From Candidatus Sulfopaludibacter sp. SbA3 (GTDB lineage: Bacteria; Acidobacteriota; Terriglobia; Bryobacterales; Bryobacteraceae): a stretch of 64,000 nt of DNA. Under the pieces are notes generated by a model, which had not been told where the DNA came from, did not search any database, and saw only the letters and a program-made list of their open reading frames with translations. Both the position numbers and the translations under genes were made by a program. Within the stretch, counting starts at the first letter, position 1. Each line of letters opens with the position of its first letter. This document shows, one piece after another, positions 45,571 to 49,896 of this stretch. The stretch spans positions 62,001 to 126,000 of the forward strand of contig CAMDCN010000019.1 of NCBI GenBank assembly GCA_945890485.1. The letters run 5' to 3'.

Positions 45571-46773
45571 TTAGCGCATCAATAAGTTAAGAAAAGGGGG
45601 GGGCGGCTTGCGGCCGCCGCGATCTTGCTTCAGTCTGCCCGAGTACATCGCCAGCCCTGCGGCTGTCGTCCAACTGGGGTTATTCAACCGGCCCGGCCAG
45701 TCCAGGATGCCCACCGGCAATCCGTTCCGGGCAGGGCAATTCAGCACTTGCTCGGCAACGTCGCACATCCCATTGAGACGTGCCCCGCCACCGCACAGCA
45801 CGATACCTTCGAGCAGCTTGCGATCCATGCCGGCCTCAATCACTTTCCGTTGCACATACTCAAACAGAAATTGCGCCCGAGCCTCCAGCATATCGTTTAA
45901 CTCCCGCCGCGGCGCTTCCCGCGATGGCCGCCCATCGGTCGACGGGACTTCAATGTATGTATTGTCCGCCGTTAACCCCAGAATGGCGCAGCCATATTCA
46001 ATCTTCAGTCGCTCGGCGTCTTCGTGCGTCACATGGAACCCGGTGCTGACGTCCCGCGTGAAGTGGTCGGCATTTACGCGAATACTCGCCGCCTGCACCA
46101 TCGCCTCGCCTTCATAAATCGCGATCTCGGTCGAATGCAGCCCGATGTCCGCTACCGCCACGCCCTTCGCCCGCTCCTCGGGCAGCACGCTCGCGTACGC
46201 AGCCGCCATCGCCTCGAACACGGTCTCTTCCACCGCCAAGTGAGCATGGTGCACCGCGCTCACCAAGGCTTGGTGATCGATCGCCGAGGTGGTCACGACA
46301 TGAACATTGGCCTCAAGGCGAGAGCCCCGATACCCGCGCGGATTCAGAATCTCCGTCCGGCCGTCCAGCGTAAAATCCTGTGGCAACACCTGCAGCAGAA
46401 TCCGGTCATCTTCCAACCGAACCCGGCACGCCAATTCCACCGCGTACCGCATGTCGGACTCGTCGATGTCCCTCGGCCGGCCCAACTCATAAACGCCGCG
46501 CGCGTTCGCGCCCTGAATCGCTTCTCCGCCCAACCCCACTACGGCAGCGTCGAAGGAGATCTGCGCCTGCCGTTCGGCCTCTCGCGCCGCGAGCTTCACG
46601 GACTCCGACAACTGCGCCCGATCGGCGATTCGCCCCTTCGCCCAACCCTTGGCCTCCGCCTCTCCCGAGCCCAGAAAACGGATCTTTCCGTCTTCCACCA
46701 CGCAGACGACGCAACGCGTCAGGGAACTCCCGGCGTCCAACCCAACTGCCAACTTTACGCGGCTACCAGCCAT
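45571..46773 (-). CDS. ftsA: Cell division protein FtsA
   Basis: [49 protein letters not shown]-terminal short hydrophobic tail PPFLNLLMR. Confidence 0.95.
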
Positions 46774-47629
46774 GAGAGATCCCTCCGTGCAACGCCAATC
46801 CAGCCGCCACTGCCCAACTGGGCGCCGAAAGCTCCAGTGGCCATTCCGCTACACCGACCACCTGTCCCAAGCGCACCGGACATTGCAGCAACTCCTCAGC
46901 GTAATCGCAGAGTCCAGGCAGGCACGCGCCTCCACCCGTCAGGATCAATCCCCCTGGCGGCGGCAACTGACCCGCCAACTCTTCAATCCGGAATTCCAGC
47001 ATGTGCAGATACTGTCCGGCGCGCGCTTCGAGAATCTCCTGCAACGGCGTCGATTTCTCCTCGGTCGACGACCTGGCAATGCTCCCCACTGTCACCTTCC
47101 GGTGCTCTGCCTCGGCAAACGGCAGATCAAACAGAGTCGCGATGTCTTCGGTGAACTCGCGCGCCCCCATCGGCAAACTCATGGTGCGAACGCCGCCGGT
47201 TAAGTCGCTGTAAGCCAACTCCGTCGATTCCACGCCAATCGCCGCCGCACTGATCCCGCCCTGCCGCATCAGATCCGACGTCGTCGCCAAAAGCGCCGCT
47301 TCGGCTTCCACCACGTAGTCCGCCACGCGGAGTCCGCTCCGCTCCAGCGCCGCGTTCAGCGCCTCCATCTGGTTGAAGGAGTCCGCATAGCCCGCGGTCA
47401 CCGTCTCGATCTCCGCTCCGGCCCGGATCCCAGCGGCCATCGCCGCCGCCGATACTGACCCCGCCACCGCCTCCACATTCCGGATCCTGCCCTGCTCCCA
47501 TCCCTGCGATGGCACGATGCTCGCGCTCCGTAGCCGCGGGCGCCCGTTCACCCATTCGATCAACACACATCGGGTATGGGCAGTCCCTGCGTCGAGGCCC
47601 GCGCGGATCAACGGGGCGCTAGGCTCCAC
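46763..47629 (-). CDS. FtsA paralog, short form
   Basis: IRAGLDAGTAHTRCVLIEWVNGRPRL...GGLILTGGGACLPGLCDYAEELLQCPVRLG parallels FtsA; proposed GTG start 47629. Confidence 0.85.
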   Translation of the reverse strand: MEPSAPLIRAGLDAGTAHTRCVLIEWVNGRPRLRSASIVPSQGWEQGRIRNVEAVAGSVSAAAMAAGIRAGAEIETVTAGYADSFNQMEALNAALERSGLRVADYVVEAEAALLATTSDLMRQGGISAAAIGVESTELAYSDLTGGVRTMSLPMGAREFTEDIATLFDLPFAEAEHRKVTVGSIARSSTEEKSTPLQEILEARAGQYLHMLEFRIEELAGQLPPPGGLILTGGGACLPGLCDYAEELLQCPVRLGQVVGVAEWPLELSAPSWAVAAGLALHGGISHGW

Positions 47630-48512
47630 TGGGAACCTCGGGCGACGCAATCCGCTCCGCTTTCCCGCCGTCCTGCGGCACAGAGAGAATGTTCCCCTCG
47701 ATCCGCAAATCAAACACGTTCGATTCCGGCGCCCGCTTCAGAATCTCGGGGTAGCTCAGCCGGAACTTTTCGAGGCGCCGCCGGAACTGCCGGTCCCCGA
47801 TGAAGAGCATAACCACTCGCCCATTCTCGTCCTGCATCACTTTTAGGTTACCCGGATCCGTCGCGTCTACCTCGGAAATTTTCTCCGCCAGTGGTCCGGC
47901 GTCCTGCAACAACTTTACAAACCGGTGTACCCGCACCTTCCGTTCAGCTTCGTCCTGCTGCAATCCCACGCCGCGCAAGACAGGAAGTTGAAACTCACCG
48001 GGCTGCTGTAGACGCAGAATATTTCCGTCCGTGTCGATCAAGGCTGGCTCCTGGGTCTGTTCCGGTCCCGTGATCTGCACCCAAGCTACCGGCTCCCGCT
48101 CTTTCACTTCCACGCGAATCTGGTTCGGCCACACGCGCGTCACCGACGCCTCGGCGATCCAAGGATTTCCCAGCAACTGCAGGCGCCGCTCCCGGATCGG
48201 CAGCATGTAAAGGCTCCGCCCGTAGTCAGACTGAAAGACTGCCGATACCTGCGACCGCGCGGCATTCTTGAGTCCCCGAATTTCGAGCGCCGGGCTGTCC
48301 TCGCCCAGATCCGGCGGCGCCGCCACCAAAAACTGGGAATCCCTCAGCAGAAAGCGTTGTAATTCCTGCCAGCCAAACAGCAGCCCCACCACGGCCACGG
48401 AAAACGCAGTCGCCCAGACCAGCCCGCTCCACACCGTGCGAAATCGCGCCTTCCGCGCCGCATCTTTCTGCGGTGCCCGGTCAGCGGCGGTACTGTTCTG
48501 TTTGCGTGCCAT
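47619..48512 (-). CDS. ftsQ: Cell division protein FtsQ
   Basis: N-terminal TM; POTRA-like region; RRLQLLGNPWIAEASVTRVWPNQIRVEVKEREPVAWVQ. Confidence 0.93.
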   Translation of the reverse strand: MARKQNSTAADRAPQKDAARKARFRTVWSGLVWATAFSVAVVGLLFGWQELQRFLLRDSQFLVAAPPDLGEDSPALEIRGLKNAARSQVSAVFQSDYGRSLYMLPIRERRLQLLGNPWIAEASVTRVWPNQIRVEVKEREPVAWVQITGPEQTQEPALIDTDGNILRLQQPGEFQLPVLRGVGLQQDEAERKVRVHRFVKLLQDAGPLAEKISEVDATDPGNLKVMQDENGRVVMLFIGDRQFRRRLEKFRLSYPEILKRAPESNVFDLRIEGNILSVPQDGGKAERIASPEVPSGA

Positions 48513-48525
48513 GTTCGGACTCCTC

Positions 48526-49896
48526 TTACTGCAGCCGGGTCAGGATCTTGTCCCCGGCCTGCCATACGCTACCTGCGCCCAATGTCACAATCACATCACC
48601 CGGCTGTGCCGCCGCCACCGCAGCATCGATCGCCAATTCCATCGAACCGGAATACTGCGCGCCGCGATGGCCGAAGTCCTGCAACCGCCCCGCCAGCGCC
48701 TCCGACGTCACGCCGGCAATCGGCTGCTCGGAAGCGGCATAGATGTCCATCAGATAGACGGCATCCGCCTGATGAAAACTCCGCGCGAACTCGTCCATTA
48801 AGTGCTGCGTCCGCGTGTACCGATGCGGCTGGAAGATCACATGAATGCGCCCAAACTGGCAGAGTCGAGCCGCCGCGAGCGTCGCCCTCACCTCGGTCGG
48901 ATGGTGCCCGTAGTCGTCAATCACCGTCACACCGCCCGCCACGCCGCGCAGCTGAAAGCGCCGGTCGACGCCCGAGTATTCAAGCAATCCGCGCGCGATC
49001 ACCTCGTGGGGAACATCCAACTCCAGCGCCAGCGCCACCGCCGCCGTCGCGTTCAGCACATTATGTACGCCCGGCACTCGGATCTGAAACGAACCCAGCT
49101 CCTCGCCCCGCAGCCGCAGTTTCCATTTGGAAGCAAAGTGCCCGCACTCCGCATCCACGATCTGCAAATCGGCCTGCGCGCTAACGCCGTAAGTGATCGT
49201 CCGCCGCTTTACGTCGGGCAGAATCTGCTGCACGTTTTCATCGTCCAGGCACAGTACCGCCGCGCCATAAAACGGCACTTTGTTCACGAAATCACGAAAA
49301 GCGGCGCGAATCTCTTCAATCGAATGATAGTGGTCCAGATGCTCCCGGTCGATGTTCGTCACGACAGCCAGAATCGGCGCGAGCTTCAAGAACGAGCCGT
49401 CGCTTTCATCGCTTTCCACCACCAGAAAATCGCTCTGCCCCAGCCGCGCGTTGTCTCCGCCCAGCGTCCCCACTTTCCCTCCCACCACCACGGTCGGGTC
49501 CAGTCCCGCATGGGCCAGAATCGCCGCGGTGATCGAAGTTGTGGAAGTCTTGCCGTGGCTCCCCGCAATCGCGATGCCATACTTCAGCCGCATCAGCTCC
49601 GCCAGCAGCTCCCCGCGAGGTATCACGGGAATCCCTAAACGCCGTGCCTCCACCAGCTCCGGGTTGTCCGGCCGAACCGCTGACGTTACGACCAGCGCCT
49701 TCGCTCCGGCCACGTTGGAAGCTTCATGGCCCTCGTAGATCGTCATGCCCATCTTGGCGAGCCGGTCCGTCGTCGCCGAAAATTTCTGGTCCGATCCCGA
49801 AATCGTATAGCCCAGATTATGCAGCACCATCGCAATGCCGCTCATGCCGATGCCGCCGATGCCCGTGAAATGAAGGTGCTGTGGCTTAAAAAACAT
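48526..49896 (-). CDS. murC: UDP-N-acetylmuramate--L-alanine ligase
   Basis: [40 protein letters not shown]. Confidence 0.97.

Follow-up and report, generated by a model that had tools for sequence, protein, structure and literature searches.

The cell-division actin FtsA has modules for self-assembly, FtsZ binding and membrane attachment. Lateral contacts between FtsA molecules are almost entirely of the 1C-1C type, longitudinal contacts join 2A to 2B, and FtsN binds in the 1A-1C cleft (PMC7613929). In E. coli, deletion work (Rico et al. 2004, cited in PMC4281207) reported that interaction with FtsZ depends on strands S12-S13 of subdomain 2B, and that self-interaction and the recruitment of FtsQ and FtsN depend on 1C; both modules were called essential in that account. 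The picture differs in Neisseria gonorrhoeae, where FtsQ, FtsZ and FtsN are contacted by 2A and 2B, and FtsW by 2A (PMC5727935). The essential status of 1C and of the 2B hairpin comes from deletions in one model organism.

Two other actin-fold proteins are relevant. PilM keeps a 1C subdomain and has its PilN site in the 1A-1C cleft. EutJ (3h1q), an ethanolamine-utilisation protein, has no 1C insertion and amounts to a minimal core of some 270 residues. Among the open-access papers searched, none was found to describe an FtsA devoid of 1C or a paralogue of FtsA encoded in the dcw cluster.

The gene described here, designated X, encodes an FtsA paralogue stripped to the bare actin-fold core 1A-2A-2B. 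It shares with FtsA this predicted fold, the phosphate-1 and adenosine motifs and the dcw position, but is devoid of 1C/SHS2, the S12-S13 hairpin, the membrane tail and the phosphate-2 Asp. In this it resembles the E. coli deletion alleles described in PMC4281207, since both modules removed there are naturally missing. Unlike them, it is encoded by a further, conserved gene next to an intact FtsA, and its tail and phosphate-2 Asp are missing too. X is a naturally conserved protein without 1C, 2B hairpin and membrane tail that is retained next to a normal FtsA, and its sequence suggests a new candidate regulator of bacterial division.

An additional ftsA-like gene between ftsQ and ftsA

The window analysed (64,000 nucleotides from Candidatus Sulfopaludibacter sp. 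SbA3) displays the minus-strand gene order murC, ftsQ, X, ftsA, ftsZ. A preliminary description, made from the sequence alone, had placed a second FtsA-like gene at 46763-47629, flanked by ftsQ and ftsA, and this location was correct: the ORF runs from a GTG at 47629 to a stop at 46763 and encodes an FtsA homologue.

48526..49896, minus strand: murC, upstream neighbour and source of the species tree
47619..48512, minus strand: ftsQ
47619..47629, minus strand: 11 nt shared by the end of ftsQ and the start of X, of equal length in nine species
46763..47629, minus strand: X, FtsA paralogue lacking 1C, S12-S13 and tail (288 aa, GTG start)
46763..46773, minus strand: 11 nt shared by the end of X and the start of ftsA
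45571..46773, minus strand: ftsA, canonical, 400 aa
44310..45548, minus strand: ftsZ, C-terminal peptide present, ending in (L/M)RRERRLFR

A 316-residue version of X with a TTG start was discarded, as the orthologues have a GTG or ATG start at the 47629 position in common and one ORF opens just three codons upstream of it.

Pfam FtsA (PF14450) matched X with 49.4 bits (cut-off 31.8). SHS2_FTSA (PF02491), which matched residues 83-161 of the neighbouring FtsA (65 bits), gave no match to X in the Pfam search. Against a cut-off of 175.85, NCBIfam ftsA (TIGR01174) scored 93.1 bits on X and 288 bits on its neighbour. X belongs to the FtsA family in the broad sense, its nearest relatives being FtsA proteins by profile, tree and fold.

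The AlphaFold2 model of X (pLDDT 91.7, pTM 0.90) displayed an actin fold with 1A, 2A and 2B, a prediction partly carried by the FtsA rows that its alignment contained. In it, strand 76-81 runs into helix 88-97 with no 1C between them. The model of the window FtsA showed an intact 1C as well as a strand pair (273-276 and 285-288) without counterpart in the X model. Best PDB matches of X in Foldseek were all FtsA (TM 0.89 by query length). EutJ reached TM 0.73/0.78 and resembles X as a minimal core, yet no EutJ family model appeared among the profile matches of X at E 0.1.

Lost modules and the nucleotide site

When nine X orthologues were aligned with 26 FtsA sequences, three losses common to all nine emerged: the 1C block, a stretch of 2B (about 20 residues) and, at the C-terminus, linker and tail. 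The first is an 80-residue block (residues 84-163 of the window FtsA) whose ends match the SHS2 domain boundaries. The second takes out strands S12-S13 (named here from our own strand count along the window FtsA model) and had escaped the preliminary description. As for the third, X ends with GG(I/V)(S/A)HGW right after the last core helix.

47378..47386, minus strand: X junction (residues 82-84), where FtsA has its 80-residue 1C/SHS2
46285..46524, minus strand: ftsA 1C subdomain (residues 84-163), absent from X
47048..47083, minus strand: X short variable loop (residues 183-194) replacing the S12-S13 beta-hairpin
45910..45957, minus strand: ftsA 2B strands S12-S13 (residues 273-288), absent from X
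45574..45618, minus strand: ftsA linker and membrane-targeting tail (residues 386-400), absent from X
46973..47047, minus strand: X long 2B helix (residues 195-219), 21/25 positions invariant in nine species

What remains is unevenly conserved. The adenosine motif and C-terminal helix are best kept (44-53% identity to FtsA), and subdomain 2B is among the least FtsA-like regions (25-30%). Among 68 FtsA-conserved positions present in X, 36 are retained in all nine orthologues and 32 are changed; 12 further ones disappeared with the lost modules. The hairpin region of 2B, which includes the E. coli R286 position, is gone or altered. Arg203 of the 2B helix, kept in 9/9, corresponds to R300 of E. 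coli FtsA, a residue implicated in FtsZ binding.

The nucleotide site is only partly preserved:

47567..47599, minus strand: X phosphate-1 loop GLDAGTAHTRC (residues 11-21), Asp13 kept in 9/9
47240..47242, minus strand: X residue 130, Ala/Val where FtsA has the phosphate-2 Asp (E. coli D210)
46904..46951, minus strand: X adenosine motif (residues 227-242, GLILTGGGACLPGLCD), its most FtsA-like part

At the position of E. coli Glu14, X and every FtsA row of the alignment have Asp. The phosphate-2 Asp, present in 26/26 FtsA rows, is replaced by Ala (eight orthologues) or Val (one). In our preferred reading X is probably ATP-binding but non-cycling; its nucleotide use is nevertheless uncertain, since E. 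coli FtsA(D210A) failed in complementation and ring formation, and its purification did not succeed (PMC10213515).

The preliminary description had read X as an FtsA paralogue lacking 1C, the phosphate-2 motif and the amphipathic tail. All three absences were confirmed, that of 1C by the missing PF02491 match, by the gap in 9/9 orthologues and by structure prediction, which it had proposed as a check. Its suggestion of a soluble protein is supported by the absent C-terminal membrane helix. If the E. coli roles transfer, X would be without lateral pairing and without FtsN binding in the 1A-1C cleft, and would probably be unable to bind FtsZ; binding in the manner of FtsA is unlikely because S12-S13, to which the account in PMC4281207 ties that interaction, is lost and 2B has diverged. 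The same account reports 1C as needed for self-interaction, which makes the proposed non-polymerising state of X plausible.

Distribution, selection and origin

Within a sample of 19 genomes from one Bryobacteraceae-type genus, full-length X occurred in nine (nine species), each time in the same place. The other ten displayed ordinary FtsA only, whose match to X breaks at 1C. In those X-less congeners with the junction on one contig, no FtsA-like ORF was found between ftsQ and ftsA (gap of 8-23 nt in six genomes; some of the ten are incomplete). A profile search over 396 genomes of the phylum gave no further full-length match, and no second copy of this kind turned up in 395 other genomes of the phylum. 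Outside the phylum, coverage was by a scan of one genome per species (85,462 species) that detects close relatives only; it retrieved just eight X loci, all from metagenome assemblies with near-identical gene order and one of them titled Bryobacteraceae. A survey of dcw clusters across Acidobacteriota had been proposed, and X did not turn out to be a phylum-wide feature: among the genomes searched it was restricted to nine species of one genus. In the MurC tree these species form one clade (100/100) with the X-less congeners as its sister, so that a single gain, alone or together with one loss, is enough to explain the pattern.

No further X-like copy occurred in the genome itself, where the other FtsA/PilM-like matches were MreB beside MreC and a GspL-like protein, and no gene exceeded the pilM model cut-off. 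The GspL-like actin-fold protein (contig C2, L076, 1282-2544) adjoins a GspK-like protein. An apparent second FtsA in another Acidobacteriota genome (G333; L077 and L078) was dismissed as two contig-end ftsA pieces, 83% identical and probably from mixed strains in one metagenome bin, not from a duplication.

X is a real gene under strong purifying selection. Its orthologues are 80-97% identical and all have 288 codons, without indels or stops. Pairwise dN/dS ranged from 0.03 to 0.14 (median 0.083; the FtsA proteins of these species gave 0.049), and both gene overlaps measured 11 nt in 9/9 species. X is preceded by GAGG and ftsA by GGAGG(G/T) or GGGGGG; in the window the ftsA ribosome-binding GGAGGG sits within the X codons for GG(I/V). 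Owing to this sequence and to the overlap, the invariance of the last X residues is partly due to the ftsA start region.

In the tree, X formed one clade (100/100) within the FtsA of the genus, set off by a stem 2.5 changes per site long. As to exact branching and duplication date, the AU test rejected neither a grouping with FtsA of the X-bearing species only (p 0.44) nor a position outside all genus FtsA (p 0.46). X is 33-40% identical to genus FtsA, and FtsA models score it far above PilM and MreB models. Most likely, X arose by duplication of the FtsA of its lineage, diverged fast and was then frozen. Rapid divergence along the stem that later gave way to strong constraint points to a new specific interface.

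Possible roles of X

Our preferred reading, at a probability of roughly 45%, is that X is a functional, lineage-specific FtsA core acting as a soluble, non-cycling ATP-binding accessory that docks on FtsA or on a partner of the FtsA core. X would be made together with FtsQ and FtsA and would bind ATP as a soluble monomer. Through core surfaces of 2A, 2B and 1A it could then dock on the longitudinal 2A-2B face of FtsA or, alternatively, on one of the membrane divisome proteins that contact the FtsA core as well (FtsQ, FtsW). Once docked, it would tune FtsA assembly or activation, bringing no FtsZ link, lateral 1C contacts or FtsN site of its own. The good conservation of the adenosine motif and C-terminal helix, together with the near-invariant 2B helix, fits a nucleotide-binding core with one partner-facing surface. 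Yet docking on FtsA itself may have been lost, because 2B, which provides half of the longitudinal interface, is so weakly FtsA-like. More tentatively, X might be a pseudo-FtsA, i.e. a stripped FtsA duplicate that one clade has come to require as a regulatory partner for FtsA or for FtsQ/FtsW, in analogy to the actin-related proteins that regulate actin. Should FtsA be the target of X, bacteria would offer a case of an actin-related regulator that descends from the filament protein, and X would be a ready natural mutant separating the FtsA core's own role from what the modules add.

X could also act outside division despite its position. It is conceivable, if rather doubtful, that X left the A-ring as a neofunctionalised actin-fold core with a new partner and is merely co-inherited with ftsA. 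That partner might come from the same gene series, for example an enzyme of the cell wall or of lipid II, or X might have a chaperone-like role, as has been proposed for small actin-fold cores. The long stem with near-freezing afterwards, the 32 altered FtsA-conserved positions and the resemblance to EutJ are in line with such a departure, against which stand the position and overlaps between ftsQ and ftsA, fixed in 9/9 species, and top structural and sequence matches that are all FtsA.

A special case of the accessory reading, which gives specific form to the cap suggested in the preliminary description, is that X co-polymerises with FtsA filaments or caps them as a "blank" 2A-2B subunit, thereby lowering 1C pairing and FtsN binding. 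X indeed keeps 2A and 2B, of which longitudinal contacts are made, and not 1C, the lateral one (PMC7613929). This is nonetheless fairly unlikely, as the loss of S12-S13 and the strong divergence of 2B, which forms half of the longitudinal FtsA-FtsA contact, weaken a simple capping model.

X as a decoy competing for the FtsZ C-terminal peptide, and so freeing FtsZ from the membrane, is more unlikely still. The kept Arg203 and the conservation of the peptide would suit it; yet the hairpin reported as essential for FtsZ interaction (PMC4281207) is missing and the rest of 2B is poorly FtsA-like. The FtsZ peptide differs little between species with and without X and gives no sign of adaptation to X.

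The preliminary description had itself named PilM and a decayed pseudogene as readings that might explain X better. That X is a PilM-type pilus protein or another actin-fold protein misread as FtsA is very improbable and was rejected: Pfam PilM_2 just passes on X (27.6 bits, cut-off 27), but it passes on the true FtsA next door too (32.8 bits), NCBIfam pilM gave X 28.9 bits (cut-off 133) against 93 for ftsA, the tree (which has no PilM rows) places X with genus FtsA, and PilM has the 1C subdomain (PMC7613929) that X is without. A decaying duplicate, to which the lost modules might point, has a negligible probability, since domain-precise losses common to nine intact, indel-free orthologues with the above dN/dS values exclude both chance and decay.

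Differences between X-bearing and X-less species were observed at both ends of FtsQ. At the N-terminus (48420-48512 in the window), its cytoplasmic tail extends further in X-bearing species (MARKQNSTAADRAPQKDAARKARFR...) than it does in most congeners without X (MAKRQSEENEQRF...) and carries a basic stretch of the RKARFR/RQARYR type, a possible candidate docking site for X and a lead only. At the other end, the FtsQ C-terminus (47619-47660) overlaps the ribosome-binding site and start of X in the X-bearing clade. In BLAST comparisons, FtsQ matches from X-less congeners mostly ended 6-18 residues before the C-terminus of X-bearing FtsQ, so that gain of X may have extended FtsQ.
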